Virus record (IMG/VR): IMGVR_UViG_3300009128_002067
Coordinates: 1-24,236 of that record
From: a virus
DNA length: 24,236 nt
Reading direction: 5' to 3' (one strand)
The translations under genes were made by a program, and so were the position numbers. Below are positions 2,335 to 16,167 of the stretch, in pieces; position 1 is the stretch's first letter, and every line of letters starts with the position of its first letter. A model generated the notes under the pieces. That model saw nothing but the letters and a program-made list of their open reading frames with translations, did no database searches and was not told the origin of the DNA.

Positions 2335-2739
2335 CTAGTTCCGGAGCGCCTTGCGCCCGGCGGTGGTGATGTTGAGGGTGCCCCGGTCGACGTCACAGAC
2401 GAGCAGCCCCTGACTCGACAGCCTCGCTGCACGCCCGGCCACGTCGCTGAACACGGCGGAGGCCGTCTCGATCGGCGCTGCACGCTCGGCTCCAAGCCAC
2501 TTGAGGAACTCGCGGTCGCCAGCGCCCAGCACGGGAGCCATCACCGCGTGCAGCGGCTTGCCCAGCGCGCCGAGCACGGCGTCAACGTCCGTCGTGGTGA
2601 GCGGGCGCGTCCCGTGCTGCAACTTGCGGAGCAGCGTCGTGTGGCTCAGCCCCATCTCGGTCGACAGGGTGGTGCAGGACTTGCCCTCTTCGGTCATGAG
2701 GGCGAGCAGGCGAGCGCGGATCGTCTCGTCGAAGTTCAC
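2335..2739 (-). CDS. Two-domain DNA-binding regulator (XRE-type HTH plus winged helix-like C-terminus)
   Basis: 134 residues from a GTG that overlaps the stop of the upstream gene (GTGA). Residues about 20-45 form a helix-turn-helix (CTTLSTEMGLSHTTLLRKLQ) of the lambda-repressor/XRE kind. Residues 77-134 (FLKWLGAERAAPIETASAVF, then LSSQGLLVCDVDRGTLNIT and TAGRKALRN) resemble a winged helix with its hairpin. Such proteins bind operator DNA as dimers. It is translationally coupled to the 405-residue gene, so the two are made together from the promoter at 3977-4006. It could be an early-gene repressor or a transcription modulator; no target site could be assigned. The HTH is well supported, the winged helix less so. 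Confidence 0.7.
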   Translation of the reverse strand: MNFDETIRARLLALMTEEGKSCTTLSTEMGLSHTTLLRKLQHGTRPLTTTDVDAVLGALGKPLHAVMAPVLGAGDREFLKWLGAERAAPIETASAVFSDVAGRAARLSSQGLLVCDVDRGTLNITTAGRKALRN

Positions 2740-3953
2740 TGATCGTCTCCGGTGCGGGTGGTGATGCGGATGTCGACGTGCAAGCCGAGGGCGGCCAGCG
2801 CGGGGAGGCCTTCGGCGAGGGAGGACAGGACGCCCTGCGCGCTGAGCACGGTGGCTTCGCGGATGGTCAGGGGCGCAGGCTCCGGGCCGACTTCCTCCTC
2901 GACCCCTCCGGTCGGCCGGAGGGGTGTGATGGAGCGGACGGCTTCGGCCGCATTCGGGTAGTGGTCGGCTGGCGTCCGAACGACGCCGTCCTCGACCGTG
3001 AAGGAGCGGCCCAGGCTGCGTTCGGCCGCCACAGCCCACAGCCCTGAGCGGCGCGTGCCAATGGCGTTCAGAACTTCCTGTCGCAGGTTCGGCTCGCGGA
3101 ACCGCTCAAGATGCTCCGCCTCGGCGAGACAGTCGTCGTCCATCTCTGCGACGATCTCCAGCGCCCGCGCCAGCGACACGCGCGGCACCTGCTCCGGGGG
3201 CGTCAGGTCCGTCAGGGCGACCTCGGGCGCGGCCGGGCCCTCGGCGATGTCCTCGTGCTCGTCGCTCGCCGCTTCCCACAGAGCCAGCGCTTCCGAGTCC
3301 AGCCGCCGAACGCGCGAGATCAGCGCCTTCACCGCGTGGTCCGTCTCCTTGCCCGTCCGGTGCCGCCGGTAGTCGACAGCCTGGAGCAGCAGCCTCACGT
3401 CGACCGTCTCGGTCAGCCAGTTCCGGCAGGACCGCACCGTGTCCGTCAGGACGTGCAGCCAGGCCGCGCGCTTGTCGCCGCAGCCGTCAGACCACTTCCG
3501 GGCCGCCGCGATGTCGGACGCCTCGCAGTCCTTCCGCGGGTCCTTCTCGGTCGCGGGCTCGGGGGCAGCCGCAGCATCCTCGACGGACCGCCCGGAGCCC
3601 GGGCACCACAGCACGCCCTCGCCGCCGCCGTGCATGTCGAGCACGACCTTACCCGGGACGTGGGTGGACGCGACGAGCGCGACCTGCGACGAGCAGACGG
3701 GACAGGTGACCGTCTCGGGTGGTGCCTGCTCATGCTCGCTGGGCTGCTCGCCTTCGGGACGCTCCTCGCCCCCCTCGGCGTCCTCCGAGATGAGCACGTA
3801 CGAGTCCGGTACGTCGACCTCGCGCCCGGTCGTCACCCGGCGGATCTTCACCATGTTCGGGGACTCGCCCGGACCAACTACCTCGACGTCCTGCCCGCGC
3901 GCCGTCTTGTACTGAGCGCCCACCTGGGCCGCGCCCGCTTCGATCTGCCGCAT
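2736..3953 (-). CDS. Hypothetical phage protein with N-terminal SH3-like part and CxxC...H...C zinc-ribbon-like segment
   Basis: 405 residues, family not recognised. Residues about 15-57 look like a small beta barrel (DVEVVGPGESPNMVKIRRV, then GREVDVPDSYVLI). An acidic Glu/Pro linker (58-80) leads to C84-x2-C87, H108 and C117 in the context CPVC ... DMHGGG ... WCPGSG, a pattern often seen in small phage proteins and likely to bind zinc. The central and C-terminal parts are helical and charged, with an acidic spacer near 230-245. The ATG has a strong AGGAGG site 6 bases upstream and a promoter just before it. It is first in a two-gene unit with the HTH regulator, so a role in early regulation or nucleic-acid binding is possible but unproven. 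Confidence 0.7.
   Translation of the reverse strand: MRQIEAGAAQVGAQYKTARGQDVEVVGPGESPNMVKIRRVTTGREVDVPDSYVLISEDAEGGEERPEGEQPSEHEQAPPETVTCPVCSSQVALVASTHVPGKVVLDMHGGGEGVLWCPGSGRSVEDAAAAPEPATEKDPRKDCEASDIAAARKWSDGCGDKRAAWLHVLTDTVRSCRNWLTETVDVRLLLQAVDYRRHRTGKETDHAVKALISRVRRLDSEALALWEAASDEHEDIAEGPAAPEVALTDLTPPEQVPRVSLARALEIVAEMDDDCLAEAEHLERFREPNLRQEVLNAIGTRRSGLWAVAAERSLGRSFTVEDGVVRTPADHYPNAAEAVRSITPLRPTGGVEEEVGPEPAPLTIREATVLSAQGVLSSLAEGLPALAALGLHVDIRITTRTGDDQ
3012..3032 (+). repeat. 21-base exact direct repeat, copy 1
   Basis: Begins CAGGCTGCG and ends GCCGCCAC; identical to 19275-19295. It falls within the minus gene 2736-3953. Confidence 0.55.
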
Positions 3954-3976: not shown

Positions 3977-4006
3977 AGCATAGCCGGGCCGGCGAAAGCG
4001 AGTCAA
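3977..4006 (-). promoter_or_regulatory. Sigma-70-like promoter of the left minus operon
   Basis: On the minus strand TTGACT (4001-4006) is followed after exactly 18 bases by TATGCT (3977-3982), 23 bases before the ATG at 3953. The same TATGCT hexamer recurs in two other minus-strand promoters here (4993 and 13167). Confidence 0.75.
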
Positions 4007-4969: not shown

Positions 4970-4992
4970 GGACGCTCCTTCGTGTTGCGGCG

Positions 4993-5026: not shown

Positions 5027-5056
5027 TTGACGCGAGCACCGCTCAGGGCGGACGAT
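5027..5056 (+). promoter_or_regulatory. Leaderless-type promoter of the terminase unit
   Basis: TTGACG (5027-5032), 18 bases, GACGAT (5051-5056), 6 bases, ATG (5063). No Shine-Dalgarno site precedes the ATG. The same geometry recurs at 9061-9090 and 14836-14865, so transcription probably starts at or next to the start codon. Confidence 0.5.
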
Positions 5057-5062
5057 CAGTGC

Positions 5063-5260
5063 ATGAGCGCCCACGCTGACCGACGCCCGCAGGACGGGGC
5101 CATCTACCTCGACGCGCTGCACGAGAAGGCGTACACCGCGCAGGGCGGACGGTGGAGCAGAGCGGCGCACCTCGATAGCCTCGCCGCCATCTGGCCGGCG
5201 TTCGTCCCGCCGCCGAAGCGGGAGGAGATTGCTGAGGCTGTGCGGGCGGAGCGGGGCTGA
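5063..5260 (+). CDS. Small hypothetical protein preceding the terminase
   Basis: 65 residues, family not recognised. It is hydrophilic with a Trp/Pro-containing middle (HLDSLAAIWPAFVPPP) and a charged C-terminal helix (KREEIAEAVRAERG). The ATG at 5063 is chosen over an in-frame TTG at 5027 because that TTG reads as a -35 element and has no ribosome site. Its stop overlaps the ATG of the small terminase gene (TGATG), so the two are coupled. First gene of the packaging unit; it may assist packaging or regulate it, but nothing in the sequence decides this. Confidence 0.6.
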   Translation: MSAHADRRPQDGAIYLDALHEKAYTAQGGRWSRAAHLDSLAAIWPAFVPPPKREEIAEAVRAERG

Positions 5261-7368: not shown

Positions 7369-7473
7369 TTGACCGACACGAACATGGCGCAGGCCTTCAC
7401 AGACTTCGGCCGGTCTGCGCGTGACGCGGGGCAGCGGCTCGACATGCCGGAACTTCCGGCGCTGGAGGAGTGA
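7369..7473 (+). CDS. Small 34-residue hypothetical protein
   Basis: Starts at TTG 7369, six bases after an AGGAG ribosome site (ACAGGAGCGACCC), and ends in TGA overlapping the next ATG (TGATG). The product is polar and probably helical (AFTDFGRSARDAGQRL) and then PELPALEE. The ATG at 7384 is an alternative but lies too far from the ribosome site. Coupling to the DUF551 gene supports translation. Function unknown. Confidence 0.55.
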   Translation: MTDTNMAQAFTDFGRSARDAGQRLDMPELPALEE

Positions 7474-7868
7474 TGGGCTGGATCAAGACGAGCGAGAGGC
7501 TGCCGGAGCCGGCAAAGGACGTGATCGTGTGGGCCGCTGGCCATGCGACGCAACCGGCGCGCTCCATTGCCCACCGCGCAGGTGATTGGTCTGACGCCTC
7601 GGGGCTGCTCGACTTTCTGCCGACCCACTGGCGCCCGCTGCCCCAGCCTCCCGGCGCCGAGGGCGAGACGATCGAGGTGCGGATCGCGGTGGCGGTGGAC
7701 GAGCACGGCGATTGGAACGCCGTCGGGTGGCCGCTGACAGCGTTCAGCGGCAACCCGATGAACGAGGCGGTGGAGGGCGTGTCCACCGAGGCGGCGCATG
7801 CGGAGTGCTGGGTCACCGCCCGCGTCCCGCTGCCCCGCGTCGCCGAGGTCGAGGGAGATGTCGAGTGA
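7473..7868 (+). CDS. DUF551 domain protein
   Basis: 131 residues. Residues 1-60 match the DUF551 pattern: GWIKTSERLPEPAKDVIVWA at the start and THWRPLPQPP at 54-63, the hallmark ending of that domain. DUF551 proteins are small and common in phages and prophages; their function is unknown. The last half (VRIAVAVDEHGDWNAVGW onward) looks like a second beta-rich module ending in an acidic tail. The ATG is chosen over an adjacent GTG because it gives the TGATG overlap with the upstream gene. The stop again overlaps the next start (TGATG). Confidence 0.8.
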   Translation: MGWIKTSERLPEPAKDVIVWAAGHATQPARSIAHRAGDWSDASGLLDFLPTHWRPLPQPPGAEGETIEVRIAVAVDEHGDWNAVGWPLTAFSGNPMNEAVEGVSTEAAHAECWVTARVPLPRVAEVEGDVE

Positions 7869-8077: not shown

Positions 8078-8262
8078 GGCTCCTGACGCGCCTCCGCCGC
8101 TGGTGGGCGCGGAACGATGAACTCGTGCACCTGGCCGACTGCGCCGGGTTCAGGGTGGGCGACAAGGTGAAGATCGGCGGCGTCGCGGGCCGCGTGGTCG
8201 CGGCTGACGCCGATGTGATCGTGGTCCGACGGATTCGGCCGTGGTGGAGGGTGTGGCGATGA
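8074..8262 (+). CDS. Small basic protein with SH3/KOW-like segment
   Basis: 62 residues. A basic, Trp-rich start (RLLTRLRRWWARND) is followed by FRVGDKVKIGGVAGRVVAAD, a five-strand-barrel pattern like small SH3/KOW domains, and another basic Trp-rich end (RRIRPWWRVWR). Such modules often bind nucleic acid or protein; no family assignment is possible. It overlaps both neighbours by ATGA. The two Trp/Arg clusters at its ends could also bind membrane or DNA. Confidence 0.6.
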   Translation: MRLLTRLRRWWARNDELVHLADCAGFRVGDKVKIGGVAGRVVAADADVIVVRRIRPWWRVWR

Positions 8263-8741
8263 GAGAGACTCCGATCTGCCACCTGACCATCGGGCCGCGC
8301 CAGTGGCATCGGACGGCCGACAACACGCTGGAACTGGACACGACGGCGCCGTGCCTGACCGGACGGTGCTCGGCGTGGACGGAGGACCACCGGTTCGGCC
8401 GATGCGGACTCATCCCGGCCGACGCCGACTTCGTTCCGGACGTCGGAACCGATCCGGTTCCTTCGGAGCCGTCCATCATGGACGATCCGGCATGGCAGGC
8501 GCTGGCCCCGCTGTCGACGCGGACGACCAACGCGCTCCGCGACCGGCTGCCGTACACGCTCTGGGGTGACGCCTGCGGCGCCCGTGACGTGACGGTGCGC
8601 GAACTATGCGAACTCACCCCGGCCCTGCTGCTCAAGATGCGGAACTTCGCCCGGACGTCGCTCAAGGAGGTCGTGGCCGCGTTGGACGAGCAAGGGCTCC
8701 GGCTGAGCACGTTCGACGAGTGGGAGGCACGACAGCGATGA
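8259..8741 (+). CDS. Protein with RNA polymerase alpha C-terminal-domain-like module and Cys-rich N-terminus
   Basis: 160 residues. Residues about 82-150 follow the bacterial RNA polymerase alpha-CTD: LSTRTTNALRDRL aligns with the LTVRSANCLK helix (R88 and N91 match the DNA-contacting Arg265 and Asn268 of E. coli), VTVRELCELTPALLLKMRNF matches the helix-turn before NLGKKSL, and ARTSLKEVVAALDEQGLRLS matches the final helices, with S134 in place of Ser299. About 14 extra residues separate the first two helices. The N-terminus has C7, C32, C37 and C49 with nearby His and may bind zinc. In the host enzyme the alpha-CTD contacts UP-element DNA and activators, so this could bind promoter DNA. The ATG overlaps the upstream stop (ATGA), and its stop overlaps the next ATG. 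Confidence 0.78.
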   Translation: MRETPICHLTIGPRQWHRTADNTLELDTTAPCLTGRCSAWTEDHRFGRCGLIPADADFVPDVGTDPVPSEPSIMDDPAWQALAPLSTRTTNALRDRLPYTLWGDACGARDVTVRELCELTPALLLKMRNFARTSLKEVVAALDEQGLRLSTFDEWEARQR

Positions 8742-9029: not shown

Positions 9030-9092
9030 ATGGCTGGAGTACGGCCGCGACTGAACACGCTTGCGCGCGACCGCTTCACGCGCGTACCGTGA
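9030..9092 (+). CDS. 20-residue open frame (possible leader peptide)
   Basis: ATG at 9030 follows an ACAGGAGAGCG ribosome-like site; the frame MAGVRPRLNTLARDRFTRVP ends at 9092, four bases before the next gene. It covers the promoter at 9061-9090. It may be a translated leader for readthrough transcripts or simply chance. Confidence 0.25.
   Translation: MAGVRPRLNTLARDRFTRVP
9061..9090 (+). promoter_or_regulatory. Leaderless-type promoter before the portal unit
   Basis: TTGCGC (9061-9066), 18 bases, TACCGT (9085-9090), 6 bases, ATG (9097). No Shine-Dalgarno site. The spacer contains CTTCACGC (9074-9081), eight bases shared with the spacer of the promoter at 14836. Confidence 0.5.
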
Positions 9093-9096
9093 CCCC

Positions 9097-9405
9097 ATGC
9101 CCACGCTGCTCGAACCGCTCAGGGGCCCGCGCGAGACGGTGTACGCCGACCGCCTGCAGGTCAACCGCTTCAACCGCGCCGAGTTCCTTGAGATCTTCGA
9201 GGAGTACATCGCCAGCAGGTACGAGCGGAACATCCGGCGCGGGCTGTACGGCGCCCGTGCGCTGCCCAACGCCTTCGCGATCGACCCCGAGAAGTTCGAG
9301 ACGCAGGAGGACGCCGCGTACGCCGCGATGCTGGCCGACGAGGCGCTGATGAAGTTCGCGAGCAAGAAGGGCTTCGACCTCGGCGACAGGCGGAGGCTGC
9401 AGTGA
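9097..9405 (+). CDS. Hypothetical protein upstream of portal
   Basis: 102 residues, family not recognised. Mostly helical and charged: NRAEFLEIFEEYIASRYERN, then AIDPEKFETQEDAAYAAMLA and a basic end (SKKGFDLGDRRRLQ). The ATG at 9097 is preferred to an in-frame TTG at 9061, which is the -35 element of the promoter. Its stop overlaps the portal GTG (GTGA), so it is coupled to the portal gene. Its place between the terminase block and portal suggests a packaging or portal-assembly accessory role, but nothing shows this directly. Confidence 0.65.
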   Translation: MPTLLEPLRGPRETVYADRLQVNRFNRAEFLEIFEEYIASRYERNIRRGLYGARALPNAFAIDPEKFETQEDAAYAAMLADEALMKFASKKGFDLGDRRRLQ

Positions 9406-12400: not shown

Positions 12401-12419
12401 GGTCCCGCCCGCCGGCTAG
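9402..12419 (+). CDS. Portal protein (Mu gp29-like) fused to MuF-type minor head protein
   Basis: 1005 residues, about twice a normal portal. Residues ~1-430 are a DUF935/Mu gp29-like portal: VDEEPTLQAMRLAITLPLLG, YQWRGFLPSELFWPY, and NMRVLEAQGWQRAAYGVPTI near 247-266, then an AILAKRHSMLMVV helix. Residues ~445-500 and ~560-610 are acidic Pro/Glu/Asp linkers. The last third has a Cys cluster (CGEGCGC near 799) and ends like MuF head-morphogenesis proteins: C960-x2-C963 in SCDSCLGHDGETF, a later WCEAV and LCNCL. The portal forms the ring at the packaging vertex; MuF proteins sit inside or at that vertex. The GTG overlaps the upstream stop (GTGA); its TAG shares the CTAG at 12416-12419 with the opposing gene. 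No frameshift or internal stop interrupts the fusion. Confidence 0.85.
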   Translation: MSTGYDGPAPALTQDAVQRVAASGQPASFLPGGFALASARKANAWDGTELFGGTVKQDANRALDARSWFGSPGLVGIQDRMVDEEPTLQAMRLAITLPLLGDAWRMEAPTVPTPQEQEATDFAELALFEHLDCDDGWHGWIEQAVQYQWRGFLPSELFWPYDREMKRTLLGLRPLMPKTVREWSSTPDGWELKQWPATGDMAKGRGWRGTVLQPDEYINLRYMPKGSSPAPMGAFRPAYADWMASSNMRVLEAQGWQRAAYGVPTIKVDPTAPGFDDAQSTIDAVNLAAKNYRSGLLAAQMMPPGYEMIFQDFPFRGEELGKAILAKRHSMLMVVLATFLRTGETKGALALHDGQVAFFTKSLQQAANKIARVLSRYVVKRLIAKNFPAVRRFPAVKAPEIRIGDPAALVEAIVGALDKGAVVDSDRAVEDRIREVLSAPPRPEPAAGPLDPDEGGGKTDKGDPEDEVDEETAEEQGTKPKGDDEPEVEAGERPLFTAGGIPTYLRWDNIRDSIVDPEGQAELDRLLTEFKERHDPAGDPAAPPIVVLDGKVVARAAGMDLRSEVENAPESPASVPEEEPEPVEPTVDTPEQVDANAANVGASAEEGDPEAIERYADDLLSASDEDLDRLSDAIDEAVADLLAAERHLRGPSALRYAERVKRLNEDQPTTGPRGRALRACEEVVRLSETVDRTYAGKTEQVRIIDDWRKRIAEPYAAEVSKAADLPAVARAPVPGQKELVGALSVNLRAAYRSGQASVRNEIDRIEADPDLRKRIERGDAEVGGDGDMPAPPRLSDRCGEGCGCTREVDAYFVDMTLAERMTVAGACPQPDDSLRLARKRTAKAPTPNPDLPASDIDDIDPEDSIYAVARTTVDAAARRVSDATALAAQGAGEAGVLPASSVLAEAVAGAVLALAPSGDKHQAQADVNDIFGLGRRQEQRAEVDPGWTFMYSALLESASCDSCLGHDGETFGADQLDEYRTPASWCEAVPQSLCNCLTIAVPPAG
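11816..11825 (+). repeat. GCGTGAAGTC site 2
   Basis: Exact copy of the 10-mer in the MuF part of the portal fusion, again reading Arg-Glu-Val with CGT GAA GTC. Confidence 0.5.
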
Positions 12420-12637
12420 CCTCTCGGCTTCACGGTCTGCGCGTACACCACGACGCCCTTCGGCTCGATCACCTTCCCGCCTCGAATCGCCGGCCCCTCC
12501 GGCAGAGCCTCGCTCCACTCGAAGGGGTGCAGGTCGGGCAGGAGGAACGGCTCCGCCTCCGTGAACCTCGGCGAGCCGCACCCAGGACACTCGTCGGCGC
12601 TGTGGAGTCGGCCGCAGTGCTGGCAGTAGTCGCTCAT
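12416..12637 (-). CDS. Small zinc-ribbon protein
   Basis: 73 residues from an ATG that overlaps the upstream stop (ATGA). The N-terminus SDYCQHCGRLHSADECPGCG gives two CxxC knuckles (C5/C8 and C17/C20), a compact zinc ribbon. The remainder is Pro/Glu-rich and ends in a beta-like GVVVYAQTVKPRG. Zinc ribbons of this size often act as adaptors or nucleic-acid binders. Last gene of a coupled minus island; its stop shares a CTAG palindrome with the portal gene stop. Confidence 0.65.
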   Translation of the reverse strand: MSDYCQHCGRLHSADECPGCGSPRFTEAEPFLLPDLHPFEWSEALPEGPAIRGGKVIEPKGVVVYAQTVKPRG

Positions 12638-12813
12638 GCCGCCTCCCGCTCCCGCCGTTTCTCCCTCGCCGCCTCGACCCGCGCGCACTCGCGGCACGGC
12701 TCGCCGTCGTTGTCCTTCTCGCGGATGCGCCGCCCGCAGGCTGTCTCCATCTCGTAGAAGGAGCGCCGGAAGACGCGGGTCGGCGTGTAGCGGACGACCT
12801 TGTGCAGGCTCAT
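12634..12813 (-). CDS. Small basic Cys-pair protein
   Basis: 59 residues. A basic N-terminal half (SLHKVVRYTPTRVFRRSFYE) is followed by C26 in TACGRRI and C40-x2-C43 in EPCREC, then a strongly charged helix (ARVEAAREKRREREAA). The three Cys could bind zinc together with a fourth ligand such as the His at position 4. Phages of high-GC hosts often encode such small proteins; functions are mostly unknown. ATGA overlaps on both sides. Confidence 0.6.
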   Translation of the reverse strand: MSLHKVVRYTPTRVFRRSFYEMETACGRRIREKDNDGEPCRECARVEAAREKRREREAA

Positions 12814-13016
12814 CGTCCGCTCTCCCGCCGGTACCGCCAACAGAGCTCCTCGTTCGGCGTCGGACACCCGGAGCACTTCGTCGCCAGCGTGTGGCAGGGC
12901 TCCTCCTCGGCCAGTGGGATCGAGCCGATGCCGTGCCGCTTCTTGTAGGCGGCCAGGTCGAAGCGGTCGACCTTCTTCACCTTCGAGGCTGTCGTGTAGA
13001 GGGTGATGTCAGCCAC
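12810..13016 (-). CDS. Small protein with four-Cys cluster
   Basis: 68 residues from GTG at 13016 inside the end of the 30-residue gene. The C-terminal third holds C-x6-C-x2-C-x7-C (EEEPCHTLATKCSGCP, then NEELCWRY), which could bind zinc or an iron-sulfur cluster. The pattern recalls, but does not match, the WhiB spacing (C-x2-C-x5-C). The first half is beta then basic (ADITLYTTASKVKKVDRFDL, AAYKKRHG). The start is chosen by overlap; an earlier in-frame ATG is possible. Function unknown. Confidence 0.55.
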   Translation of the reverse strand: MADITLYTTASKVKKVDRFDLAAYKKRHGIGSIPLAEEEPCHTLATKCSGCPTPNEELCWRYRRESGR

Positions 13017-13101
13017 GGGACACCCCGTCATGTACAGCGCACCCCGGGCACATGACCGCATCGAGGTCGATTCGGGTGGTAGTCTCAGGGGGCTGGGGCA
13101 T
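13009..13101 (-). CDS. Tiny 30-residue CxxC peptide
   Basis: ATG at 13101 has a good GGGAG ribosome site 6 bases upstream. The product starts PQPPETTTRIDLDAV and contains CPGC near its end. Its stop lies inside the next gene (GTGGCTGA), so translation is coupled. It is first in the minus island behind the promoter at 13167-13196. Confidence 0.45.
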   Translation of the reverse strand: MPQPPETTTRIDLDAVMCPGCAVHDGVSRG

Positions 13102-13166
13102 AGGGGACTCCCTTCGTCCTCCGCGCTCGGGCCCCGGTTGGCGCTTTGGCCGCGAGCGGTGCCCCC

Positions 13167-13196
13167 AGCATACCAGCCCTTGCCCGCGCGCGCGAA
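13167..13196 (-). promoter_or_regulatory. Promoter of the small Cys-rich minus island
   Basis: On the minus strand TGGTATGCT carries an extended -10 (TATGCT, 13167-13172), with a weak TTCGCG (13191-13196) 18 bases upstream. It overlaps the divergent plus promoter at 13180-13209, so the two may compete. Confidence 0.5.
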
Positions 13197-13209
13197 GCGT
13201 CGGTACTCT
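13180..13209 (+). promoter_or_regulatory. Near-leaderless promoter for the small plus gene
   Basis: TTGCCC (13180-13185), 18 bases, TACTCT (13204-13209), 7 bases, ATG (13217). Same spacing family as the SD-less promoters at 5027, 9061 and 14836, with one extra base before the start codon. Confidence 0.45.
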
Positions 13210-13216
13210 GTGGGCA

Positions 13217-13237
13217 ATGCGCGGCGAGGTGAAGTAG
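13217..13237 (+). CDS. Six-codon leader frame MRGEVK
   Basis: ATG at 13217, seven bases after the -10 hexamer, encodes MRGEVK and stops with a TAG whose last base begins the GTG of the next gene. Its own sequence supplies the AGGTG ribosome site for that gene. It may be a translated leader that couples initiation, or chance. Confidence 0.25.
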   Translation: MRGEVK

Positions 13238-13470
13238 TGGGCGGTCCTGGGAGCGGCAGGCGACCGAGCGACGACCCGCTCCCGGAAGGGATCGGCGTTT
13301 ACTGCGACGAGGCGGTGGCAGCTGCCAACGGCATGCACCCCGAGGCCGTCCGTGCGATCCGTCGTCGTCGAGGCATCCCGCCCGCGTCCGAGCCGCACCG
13401 ATCGAGGTGGTTGGAGGACCGGGGGTTCGACACCGTGCCGGAGTGGCCGATCGAGCACATCCCGGGCTAG
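13237..13470 (+). CDS. Small putative DNA-binding protein
   Basis: 77 residues from GTG, with AGGTG five bases upstream. It opens GGPGSGRRPSDDPLP, a Gly/Pro/Arg start common in phage terminase-small-like and HTH proteins. Residues about 20-45 (YCDEAVAAANGMHPEAVRAI, then RRRRGIPP) have helix-turn-helix spacing with a basic second helix. The C-terminal part contains paired Trp (SRWLEDRGF, VPEWPIEHIPG). It is the only plus gene between the two minus islands and ends in a CTAG shared with the opposing stop. A DNA-binding role is plausible but unproven. Confidence 0.55.
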   Translation: MGGPGSGRRPSDDPLPEGIGVYCDEAVAAANGMHPEAVRAIRRRRGIPPASEPHRSRWLEDRGFDTVPEWPIEHIPG

Positions 13471-13724
13471 ACACCGAGCAGGCTCCGCGTCTCTGCCGGC
13501 AGGCTCCAGATCAGGTACATCACGCGGCGGAAGCCCGACTTGAGCGGCAGCGCGATCAGCGGCTTGCCCTCATCGAGCGCGTCGAACCAGACGTCACAGT
13601 CGACGATCGTGCGGTAGGTCGGCTCCCCAGGCTGCTCGACCTCGATGATGACGCCGTTCGCCTGATACGTCGGTGCGTAGCCGAGTTCGCGGTAGGTCCG
13701 GCCGTGGCGGTGGAGGACGGTCAT
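13467..13724 (-). CDS. Small hypothetical protein
   Basis: 85 residues, family not recognised. Beta-rich centre (NGVIIEVEQPGEPTYRTIVD) followed by DALDEGKPLIALPLKSGF and a hydrophobic YLIWSLPAETRSLLGV end. No clear ribosome site precedes the ATG at 13724; it lies 28 bases after the upstream stop and is probably translated by re-initiation. Last gene of the second minus island. Could be a small enzyme-inhibitor-like fold, but nothing specific is visible. Confidence 0.55.
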   Translation of the reverse strand: MTVLHRHGRTYRELGYAPTYQANGVIIEVEQPGEPTYRTIVDCDVWFDALDEGKPLIALPLKSGFRRVMYLIWSLPAETRSLLGV

Positions 13725-13752
13725 TGCGGCCGGGCCGCTGGTCGTAGCGCAG

Positions 13753-14031
13753 TCACAGCCCGCACCGCTTCCGCATCCAGGCTGCGGCGGTCTCCCCCGC
13801 TTCGCGCGCCTGCCGCTTGACCTTGGCCCACTCCGCATCGCTGAACCCCCCGCGGGGCTTGCGCTTGTCGGCCAGGGCGGGGCGCCCGCGACGGCGCTGG
13901 GGCCAGTGGACGAACTCGGCGTAGCAGCCGTTCGCGCGGTGGGCCTCGTGGTCTCCGTCGTGCCCCTTGTCGAGGGCGCAGTAGATCCCGCCGGCCGGGT
14001 GGCGGGCGTTGCAGCGGTGTGCGGTCATCAT
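13753..14031 (-). CDS. Cys/His-motif protein with RHH/MobC-like C-terminal half
   Basis: 92 residues, ATG 14031 (a second ATG follows directly) with GGAGG upstream. The N-terminal half has a C...C-x-L-x2-GH-x2-D-x-H pattern (CNARHPAGGIYCALDKGHDG, then DHEAH), a zinc-binding motif typical of small proteins of high-GC phages. The C-terminal half, RRRGRPALADKRKPR then FSDAEWAKVKRQAREAG and MRKRCGL, matches the 57-residue protein at 4256-4429 residue for residue at most structural positions. So this looks like a metal-binding module joined to a DNA-binding domain of which the window has a second, free-standing copy. A stem-loop repeat lies just upstream. Confidence 0.68.
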   Translation of the reverse strand: MMTAHRCNARHPAGGIYCALDKGHDGDHEAHRANGCYAEFVHWPQRRRGRPALADKRKPRGGFSDAEWAKVKRQAREAGETAAAWMRKRCGL

Positions 14032-14043
14032 GCTTTCCTCCGT

Positions 14044-14079
14044 TGCCCGGCTTCGCCCCCGGGCTGGGCAGTGGGGTGG
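14044..14079 (-). repeat. Intercistronic stem-loop repeat, copy 1
   Basis: A 36-base unit containing GCCCGG (14045-14050), an 8-base loop and CCGGGC (14059-14064), followed by GGGCAGTGGGG. It abuts the stop codon of the minus gene at 14080. A near-identical copy stands in the same relation to the next upstream gene. There is no T-tract, so it may act as an mRNA end/processing or pausing element rather than a standard terminator. Confidence 0.6.
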
Positions 14080-14304
14080 TCAGGCGACGAGCGCGTTGGG
14101 GTCCGCGGACTCGATGAGGCGCAGCAGGTTGTCGAGCATGATCGCGCCCTGCGAGCCCTTGTCGACGTCGCCGCCGTCGAGGCGCTCGCGACACGCGCGG
14201 GCGTAGCTCTGCACGTCGTCGCTCGTGGTCGCCCCGAGGTCGACGTTGTCGACGGTGGCGCGGGCGGTGGTGATGTCGCTGAGGATGAGGTAGGTGCTGG
14301 TCAT
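14080..14304 (-). CDS. Small hypothetical helical protein
   Basis: 74 residues, family not recognised. Begins TSTYLILSDITTARATVDNV and continues with an acidic/polar helix (SYARACRERLDGGD) and a C-terminal helix (GAIMLDNLLRLIESADP). The ATG at 14304 follows GAGGGAGACAGAGACC. It is flanked on both sides by stem-loop elements, so its mRNA may be processed or its level tuned separately from its neighbours. Confidence 0.55.
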   Translation of the reverse strand: MTSTYLILSDITTARATVDNVDLGATTSDDVQSYARACRERLDGGDVDKGSQGAIMLDNLLRLIESADPNALVA

Positions 14305-14347
14305 GGTCTCTGTCTCCCTCGGGGCTCCGTGCCCATCTACTGCCTCA

Positions 14348-14374
14348 GCCCCGCCAGCGTGACCTGAGCGGGGC
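14348..14374 (-). other. Perfect 7-bp stem-loop in the leader of the 14080-14304 gene
   Basis: GCCCCGC (14348-14354), 13-base loop, GCGGGGC (14368-14374). It lies between the repeat copy 2 and the ribosome site of the minus gene starting at 14304, so two hairpins stand in tandem in a 113-base gap. No T-tract follows. Confidence 0.45.
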
Positions 14375-14380
14375 GAGGTG

Positions 14381-14417
14381 TGCCCGGCTTGGCCTCCGGG
14401 CTGGGCAGTGGGGGTGG
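14381..14417 (-). repeat. Intercistronic stem-loop repeat, copy 2
   Basis: A 37-base near-copy of 14044-14079 (two substitutions and one added G). GCCCGG (14382-14387) pairs with CCGGGC (14396-14401). The two substitutions fall in the loop, so the stem is conserved. It abuts the stop of the minus gene at 14418. Confidence 0.6.
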
Positions 14418-14714
14418 CTAGTGGTCGCCAGCGGGGCCGGCGCGGTAGCCGTCAGCCTCGACGCGGCAGACGCCGTTGTCCCAGATGACCGTGGTTTCGG
14501 TGGCGGTGAAGAAGACCACCGCGTCCAGCATCGCGCCCAGCGTCACGCCAAACTCGCGCTCGATGTAGGTCAGCGCGCTCTCACTCGCGCTCCACCGAAT
14601 CGGCGCCTTCCAGTCGCGGCCGATAGTCGCGCACTCGGGGGAAATGAACCGCCACGCGCGCTCCATCGGGTCAGTGGGAAGCGAGGCGGCGAAGGTGGCG
14701 GCGGAAGCGGACAT
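14418..14714 (-). CDS. Small hypothetical protein, first of the second minus island
   Basis: 98 residues from ATG 14714 with an AGGGAG site; an in-frame start further up would cross the promoter and is rejected. The product runs ATFAASLPTDPMERAWRFIS, IRWSASESALTYIEREFG and a beta-like AVVFFTATETTVIWDNGVCR, ending YRAGPAGDH. Family not recognised. The promoter 48 bases upstream is the best match to sigma-70 in this region, so this island is probably expressed on its own schedule against the direction of the structural genes. Confidence 0.6.
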   Translation of the reverse strand: MSASAATFAASLPTDPMERAWRFISPECATIGRDWKAPIRWSASESALTYIEREFGVTLGAMLDAVVFFTATETTVIWDNGVCRVEADGYRAGPAGDH

Positions 14715-14761
14715 GCTTTCTCTCCCTTTCCGGCGACGCTCCGTGCGTCGACCGTGAATAA

Positions 14762-14790
14762 ACAATACCCCGGCTTATCCGACGGTACAA
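14762..14790 (-). promoter_or_regulatory. Promoter of the second minus island
   Basis: On the minus strand TTGTAC (14785-14790), 17 bases, TATTGT (14762-14767), in an AT-rich patch that contrasts with the surrounding GC-rich DNA, 48 bases before the ATG at 14714. Confidence 0.65.
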
Positions 14791-14835: not shown

Positions 14836-14865
14836 TTGCGCGACTTCACGCCCCCGCCGCACGCT
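14836..14865 (+). promoter_or_regulatory. Leaderless-type promoter of the capsid unit
   Basis: TTGCGC (14836-14841), 18 bases, CACGCT (14860-14865), 6 bases, GTG (14872). The -10 is poor on its own; the case rests on the geometry shared with 5027 and 9061 and the absence of a Shine-Dalgarno site. Confidence 0.45.
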
Positions 14866-14879
14866 GATCGCGTGAAGTC
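14842..14879. promoter_or_regulatory. Inverted-repeat operator candidate centred on the -10
   Basis: GACTTCACG (14842-14850) and CGTGAAGTC (14871-14879) are perfect 9-base half-sites 20 bases apart, centred on the CACGCT hexamer. The right arm overlaps the start codon. Each arm extends to the 10-mer GCGTGAAGTC found at five other places. It could be bound by a repressor or activator, or fold as a hairpin. Confidence 0.5.
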
Positions 14880-16167
14880 ACCCGACGACCACGCGCCTGA
14901 CGCGACTGAGACGCCCGCCGACCTCGCCGAACTGGACGTGTCGAACTACCGGCGCGGCAGCAAGGACGCGGGGCGGTGCGCTGACTGCTCGTACAGTCAG
15001 ATGGTCTGGGAGCGCGGCATCGGCGGCGAGGAGGGCCAGGGCTGTCGGCTCTACGACTTCTCGACGCTGTCCGGCGGCGGGTACAAGCCCTTCTTCGTCT
15101 GCGACGACTTCGAGCGCGGTATGCGCTGGGCGGAGGGCAAGTTCCGCTTCCGCGACATGCCGCTCGTCCAGGTCGGCGACCGCGAAGACGACGGGTCGGT
15201 GTGGAACGAGGTACTTCGCGTCGGCGTCGCGACCTCGCGTGAAGTCGGCGGCACGGCGGCGAGTGGGCAGGAGCGCGTCGACATCACGGAGGAGTGGATC
15301 GACTCCCTCGTCCGCGGCACCGAACAGGTGCTCGAAGAGGGCTGGTTCCCCGGCGGCATCCCGTTCCGCGACGACGCCGGCCACGGCGACAAGAGCAAGC
15401 CGGCGGTGGGCCGCGTCCTCGAGATCAAGAAGGCGTACGCCGAGGACGGTACGCCTCGCGCGCTGATCCGCGTCAACTGGACCGACCCTGACTTCGCGGA
15501 CGCCGTCGACAAGCAGCACGTCAGCGGCTGCAGCGTCGAGATGGACTTCGGGCTGCAGAGCAAGAAGGGGAAGGGTCGGATCGACGACTGGGCGATGACC
15601 GCCGTGGTCCCGACTAACTACCCGTTCATCCCCGGCATGGACGCGCTCGCCGCCTCCGAGGCCGGCGAACAGGAGAAGGACATGAAGACGATCGCCGTCG
15701 CCCTGAACCTGGCCGAGGACAGCGCCGAGTCCGCGCTGCTGGCCGAGATCGAACGACTCCGCGACCAGGCCGACAAGGTCGAGACGCTGGAGGAGAACGC
15801 CCGCGCCCTCGCCGAGGAGCGGGACGGTCTGCAGGCGAAGCTCGACAAGCACGAGGCCGACGAGCGCACCCGGCGCATCGAGCAGGCGTGCGTCGATGGC
15901 CGGATCGACGCGGGCGAGAAGGAGCGGTACGGCCGCGCCCTCGATGCGCTGTCCGCCGAGGACCTCGAGGCCTTCTTCCCGACGGGTCGCAAGAAGACCG
16001 AGCCGAGGACCGTCGAGACCACCGACGACAACGGCGACCCCGAGGCGGCGAAGCTGGCCGCTCTGAACGAGCGGGCGGGGGCGATCGCCAAGGAGCGCGG
16101 CATCGAGATGTCCGCGGCCTTCTCGCAGGCCCGCCGCGAGCTCAACGACACCACCAAGGAGGGCTGA
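14872..16167 (+). CDS. Capsid maturation protease with C-terminal scaffold (Mu gpI-like)
   Basis: 431 residues from GTG 14872. Order: an N-terminal Cys module (C36-x2-C39, C58, C77), a protease core with GWFPGGIPF, H171 in AGHGDKSKP, VGRVLEI, and S218 or S221 in HVSGCSVEMDF, which fits the His/Ser pattern of prohead proteases, and a charged coiled-coil scaffold from about 275 onward (EIERLRDQADKVETLEENAR, LAEERDGLQAKLDKHEADER). The scaffold guides capsid assembly and is cut away by the protease. The GTG is preferred to TTG 14836 because the latter reads as a -35 element. An internal start at 15682 probably makes the scaffold alone. The stop lies 3 bases before the decoration gene. Two GCGTGAAGTC copies flank its promoter and one lies inside. 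Confidence 0.82.
   Translation: MKSPDDHAPDATETPADLAELDVSNYRRGSKDAGRCADCSYSQMVWERGIGGEEGQGCRLYDFSTLSGGGYKPFFVCDDFERGMRWAEGKFRFRDMPLVQVGDREDDGSVWNEVLRVGVATSREVGGTAASGQERVDITEEWIDSLVRGTEQVLEEGWFPGGIPFRDDAGHGDKSKPAVGRVLEIKKAYAEDGTPRALIRVNWTDPDFADAVDKQHVSGCSVEMDFGLQSKKGKGRIDDWAMTAVVPTNYPFIPGMDALAASEAGEQEKDMKTIAVALNLAEDSAESALLAEIERLRDQADKVETLEENARALAEERDGLQAKLDKHEADERTRRIEQACVDGRIDAGEKERYGRALDALSAEDLEAFFPTGRKKTEPRTVETTDDNGDPEAAKLAALNERAGAIAKERGIEMSAAFSQARRELNDTTKEG
15237..15246 (+). repeat. GCGTGAAGTC site 5
   Basis: Exact copy inside the protease gene, about 360 bases downstream of the paired copies at its promoter; reads Arg-Glu-Val. Confidence 0.5.
15682..16167 (+). CDS. Nested scaffold protein from an internal start
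   Basis: In frame with the protease gene, ATG 15682 stands six bases after a strong AGGAG (15671-15675) inside a purine run, better than the site of the parent gene. The 161-residue product begins KTIAVALNLAEDSAESALLA and contains only the coiled-coil scaffold. This mirrors the nested scaffold genes of Mu (gpZ in gpI) and lambda (Nu3 in C), where extra scaffold is needed relative to protease. No experimental proof is possible from sequence. Confidence 0.65.
   Translation: MKTIAVALNLAEDSAESALLAEIERLRDQADKVETLEENARALAEERDGLQAKLDKHEADERTRRIEQACVDGRIDAGEKERYGRALDALSAEDLEAFFPTGRKKTEPRTVETTDDNGDPEAAKLAALNERAGAIAKERGIEMSAAFSQARRELNDTTKEG

Follow-up and report, generated by a model that had tools for sequence, protein, structure and literature searches.

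Bacterial transcription activation has a hub in the C-terminal domain of the RNA polymerase alpha subunit (alpha-CTD), and detached phage copies of this domain come in many architectures. Within the domain, Glu261 is the sigma-contact residue, and the other determinant residues have a DNA-binding role. Phage alpha-CTD proteins are not new, and the kind has barely been studied; our literature search found no experimental study of any of them. Phages of Ruegeria, Bacillus and Microbacterium were found to have the domain by tblastn with an alpha-CTD query, gp133 of CcrColossus carries an alpha-CTD protein annotation, and a protein of this type is named in an Erythrobacter phage paper (PMC9127768). 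When IMG/VR was scanned once with an alignment of alpha-CTDs, 35 loci were returned. The phage proteins are recurrent, contrary to the rarity that a first-pass annotation of the present locus had implied.

Thirty proteins were scanned for domains, a set that includes the 160-aa protein described here and three proteins from named phages. PF03118 (RNA_pol_A_CTD) was present in all of them, sigma region 4 in 13, and a Cro/C1-type helix-turn-helix in several; such fusions tie the phage domain generally to transcription. The IMG/VR set was partly picked by its Arg265/Asn268 pattern (E. coli numbering throughout) and thus cannot show that phages generally keep these residues, which are reported to be critical for DNA binding by alpha-CTD (PMC11434276). 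At L033 (3451-4207) and L036 (2231-2726), a pair of neighbouring phage genes code for alpha-CTD proteins, and His replaces Asn268 in the first of them. In gp23 of Ruegeria phage V16 (L004, 2932-3798) the alpha-CTD is N-terminal, and records annotate the protein as a helix-turn-helix protein or a pyrophosphatase. Among the matches listed for bacteria, 13 of 144 domain-bearing Pseudomonadota genomes had more than one alpha-CTD copy.

An alpha-CTD gene in a terminase operon

The window analysed here is an entire IMG/VR virus record, IMGVR_UViG_3300009128_002067 (24,236 bases; 69.6% GC). Its late unit includes genes for the small and large terminase subunits, a Mu-type portal, a head protease, a scaffold, a capsid protein, neck proteins and a tape measure. 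Relatives of the portal are nearly all in actinobacteriophages, while those of the capsid protein are found in proteobacterial genomes as well. The features discussed below are as follows.

5027..5065, + strand: leaderless-type promoter (motif TTGACG-N18-GACGAT-N6-ATG), presumed for the terminase operon including the alpha-CTD gene
8259..8741, + strand: gene for the 160-aa alpha-CTD protein (open frame with ribosome-binding site, ATGA overlaps and codon fit)
8277..8405, + strand: Cys/His-bearing N-terminal segment, a possible metal site (sequence)
8505..8720, + strand: alpha-CTD-like domain, residues about 83-154 (PF03118, profile alignment of residues 85-151, AlphaFold2, Foldseek)
8547..8582, + strand: 12-residue insert, about residues 97-108, separating the Arg265/Asn268 helix from the helix-hairpin-helix half (profile alignment)
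9061..9099, + strand: leaderless-type promoter (motif), downstream of the alpha-CTD gene's operon and before the gene that precedes the portal gene
14836..14874, + strand: leaderless-type promoter (motif) of the head maturation protease gene

The open reading frame at 8259-8741 is preceded by a Shine-Dalgarno-like GGAGGG and shares an ATGA overlap with each of its two neighbours. Its codon fit to the structural genes of the phage is 0.63, compared to 0.31-0.58 in the other five frames. As the first-pass annotation had stated, the gene belongs to the late unit of packaging and head genes: it sits in the terminase operon, between the large-subunit gene and that of the portal, and presumably shares its expression from the promoter at 5027 with terminase. 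Its neighbours are small packaging-region genes, and no recognised transcription factor is among them. A DUF551 protein (7473-7868; Pfam E 2e-12) is also encoded between the terminase and portal genes.

Elsewhere in the window, an SbcD-like metallophosphoesterase gene occupies the left end of the contig (1-1281, - strand), and small leftward reading frames (12416-14765, - strand) break the rightward late unit between the portal and head protease genes. A further leftward gene (2736-3953) features an AGGAGG ribosome site and a near-consensus promoter, TTGACT-18-TATGCT, at 3977-4006 (- strand); TATGCT is also present leftward near 4990.

Protein searches of phages, plasmids, IMG/VR and GTDB genomes returned no orthologue of the 160-aa protein, nor did a search of 200 Pseudomonadota genomes that was run without a positive control. 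No relatives of the phage's terminase or portal were found in IMG/VR. The major capsid protein has relatives in 11 viral loci, one of them a 5.4-kb contig with an identical capsid protein, and PF03118 was found in none of the 11. Searching DNA at codon level for the RN.G..SL motif turned up unrelated frames only. The gene is thus a real and divergent example of a phage gene of known type, without detectable orthologues.

Domain identity and predicted fold

The first-pass annotation had placed an alpha-CTD-like domain at residues 82-150 and suggested a profile search and a structure prediction as checks. PF03118, the sole Pfam family in the protein, matches residues 112-144 at 28 bits, above the curated cut-off of 23.8 (E 1.8e-6). 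Alpha-CTDs also rank first in a phmmer search of the PDB (E 0.0015), where two further matches with E of 1 or worse were dismissed as chance, and the NCBIfam matches are to RpoA models only, all at their C-terminal ends. The N-terminal dimerisation and assembly domain of RpoA is absent from the 160 residues, and sigma70 region 4 was not found in them.

Only the helix-hairpin-helix half (residues 112-144) reaches significance in Pfam. A profile built from 33 phage and 3 bacterial alpha-CTD segments, the 160-aa protein being left out, scores 31.9 bits over residues 85-151 and sets LSTRTTNAL opposite the Arg265/Asn268 helix. When the N-terminal half of the profile was scored alone, only 11 of 5000 shuffles were not beaten.

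AlphaFold2, given an alignment of 24 phage alpha-CTD segments, produced a model with block-mean pLDDT of 83-96 over residues 81-160 (above 90 over 111-150), except for the insert at 73. Helices at 87-105, 113-117, 121-126 and 132-144 follow the order of alpha-CTD. Foldseek matched the model to solved alpha-CTDs in the PDB with a probability of 1.00 and TM scores by target of up to 0.84; matches include 1lb2, 1z3e (1.00 each) and 9zum, and both 1lb2 and 9zum are DNA-bound. No E-value fell below 0.001 because half of the chain lies outside the match. A single-sequence AlphaFold model was poor (pLDDT 38.5), with a helix pattern that was still similar; the fold assignment therefore depends on homology in sequence. 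The structure prediction thus agrees with the first-pass assignment, with a model that was aided by the alpha-CTD alignment. Taken together, the sequence matches and the model indicate that residues about 83-154 are a genuine, divergent alpha-CTD domain that is stretched in the middle.

Conserved residues, insert and N-terminal segment

Counterparts of Arg265, Asn268, Asn294, Ser299 and Glu302 are kept. The Arg265/Asn268 pair and Ser299, which had been recognised in the first pass, stand in register in the alignment. Cys269 and Gly296 are changed to Ala and Lys298 to Thr, the Glu261 patch for sigma contact is lost, and the activator-contact patch 285-289 is mostly changed (TEVEL to TPALL). Special constraint on the DNA-binding face was not borne out: 5 of 8 DNA-contact positions are kept, relative to 22 of 45 in the rest of the domain (Fisher p 0.37, no enrichment).

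The spacing from Asn268 to Asn294 is 38 rather than 26, which makes the insert 12 residues long. Additional residues had been noted after the first helix, and they do lie there, but they number about 12 and not 14. AlphaFold2 models the insert as a prolonged helix (87-105) plus a loop. It is not unique to the 160-aa protein, as a prophage protein at locus L062 carries one in the corresponding position.

The Cys-bearing N-terminus described in the first pass is evident from the sequence, with four cysteines (C7, C32, C37, C49) and three histidines (H8, H17, H44). The segment has no Pfam match and low AlphaFold2 confidence, and a search with it gave two minor tail protein matches, both weak (E about 1) and attributable to chance. 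It is a possible metal site. The head protease has a Cys-bearing N-terminal stretch (14872-15110), GRCADCSY...GCRLYDF, that recalls this segment. Cys clusters outside the domain also occur in the alpha-CTD proteins of L037, L038, L040, L042, Finch and L062.

Promoters of the late unit

The pattern TTGNNS-N18-NACNNT-N6-RTG occurs three times in the whole window on both strands, at 5027, 9061 and 14836, compared to 0.075 expected by chance. A relaxed pattern, for which the chance expectation is 2, adds 13180-13219. At each of the three sites the initiation codon stands six bases past the -10-like element, the layout of leaderless genes that depend on the main sigma factor. The TTG starts that mechanical calling assigned to reading frames at 5027, 9061 and 14836 are really -35 elements. 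AT content in the 26 bases ahead of the -35-like element is 31-35%, barely more than the 30% of the genome, and therefore does not suggest a special alpha-CTD site at the three promoters. All three resemble leaderless promoters of the ordinary sigma-A type.

The promoter at 5027 precedes the alpha-CTD gene and the one at 9061 follows it. Because the protein is itself a product of the 5027 unit, the 5027 promoter cannot need it beforehand, and whatever the terminase unit encodes arrives together with the late proteins, not ahead of them. The alpha-CTD protein is therefore unlikely to be a late switch; feedback, or action at promoters other than these three, is conceivable. The first-pass annotation had called the nearby promoters unusual and, as an inference, had linked them to a protein that could redirect host polymerase or bind phage promoters. 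Redirection of host polymerase through these promoters is not supported, given their ordinary type without an AT-rich upstream element, a protein made from the 5027 unit and a lost sigma-contact surface; the protein may still bind DNA.

Possible roles of the protein

We propose that the 160-aa protein may be a small DNA-binding adaptor acting on host transcription, a reading to which we assign a probability of roughly 45%. An alpha-CTD domain would have been captured from the alpha subunit of a bacterial RNA polymerase or from another phage, stretched after its first helix, and placed behind a Cys-bearing segment. Through its retained Arg/Asn/Ser face the protein would most likely bind DNA, acting in trans on host RNA polymerase transcription either as an accessory or as a competitor for alpha-CTD partners, in an adaptor role rather than as a switch that turns on late promoters. 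The analysis establishes what the domain is, its predicted fold and the place of the gene in its operon; binding to DNA, a connection to polymerase and a metal at the N-terminus are inferred. We favor this reading because of the PF03118, PDB and NCBIfam matches, the fold match, the five conserved counterparts, and the fusions of the domain to transcription modules in other phages. Counted against it are the changes at Gly296 and Lys298, the lost sigma contact, the lack of enrichment among DNA-contact residues, the packaging-region neighbours and the lack of orthologues in which to gauge selection.

Several of these same points would suit a plain helix-hairpin-helix DNA-binding module that serves packaging or head assembly and has no dealings with RNA polymerase. 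The gene is located between those of the terminase large subunit and the portal, with presumed terminase co-expression; the Pfam match is confined to the helix-hairpin-helix half; and the sigma-contact surface, Gly296 and Lys298 are not retained. We nevertheless regard such a module as somewhat less likely than the adaptor, as the Arg265/Asn268 half is recognisable too in the shuffle comparison, phage relatives tend toward fusion with transcription modules, and the terminase-portal region holds unrelated small genes, such as that of the DUF551 protein. It is less probable still that the protein is a decoy of host alpha-CTD, sequestering either an activator of the host or an alpha-CTD-binding protein of another phage so that host genes are repressed or rivals excluded. 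An alpha-CTD fold that is kept in the model and detached from the polymerase-assembly domain speaks for a decoy, but the activator-contact positions are mostly changed and late expression with terminase is poor timing for host take-over. Finally, a chance resemblance in a protein of some other fold could be argued from the short match, the low confidence of the single-sequence model and the dependence of the good model on an alpha-CTD alignment. Agreement among the Pfam, PDB phmmer, profile and NCBIfam searches, together with the similar helix pattern of even the poor model, makes this highly improbable.

Beyond the adaptor reading, a broader and quite speculative scenario is that tailed phages repeatedly capture an alpha-CTD, fuse it to small clusters of Cys and remodel it by means of an insert, which would give a trans-acting factor that directs host polymerase through upstream DNA while making no contact with sigma. 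In this scenario the 160-aa protein would be an extreme member of the group. Whatever its role, so short an example would offer a simple test of trans action on promoters by a detached alpha-CTD.

Comparison with known alpha-CTD proteins

Relative to the alpha-CTD of RpoA (PF03118), the 160-aa protein shares the helix order, the Arg265, Asn268, Asn294, Ser299 and Glu302 counterparts, the hydrophobic core and the GL.L ending. It differs in having no alpha N-terminal domain, in its 12-residue insert and Cys-bearing N-terminus, in the substitutions G296A, K298T and C269A, and in the loss of the Glu261 patch.

CcrColossus gp133, Bacillus phage Goe8 c00050, Microbacterium phage Mazun gp26, Rhodococcus phage Finch and V16 gp23 likewise represent stand-alone or fused alpha-CTDs in tailed-phage genomes, and the Finch protein also includes a Cys-rich part. 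These named-phage proteins have other partner domains and genome places, and their identity to the 160-aa protein is only about 25-37% over the domain. The insert is absent from Goe8, Mazun and V16 (aligned) and from Finch (by eye). Fusions of sigma region 4 and alpha-CTD in IMG/VR (e.g., L043, L037 and L041) share the alpha-CTD domain; they add a promoter-binding module of sigma type, in many cases together with a Cro/C1 helix-turn-helix, whereas the 160-aa protein has neither. The zinc-ribbon protein of the L062 prophage (3147-3449) is similarly short, with an N-terminal Cys motif, CPDC, and an insert after the first helix. Its insert, however, is about 8 residues rather than 12, it keeps Gly296 and the Glu261 counterpart, and its gene adjoins integrase and recombination genes instead of terminase.
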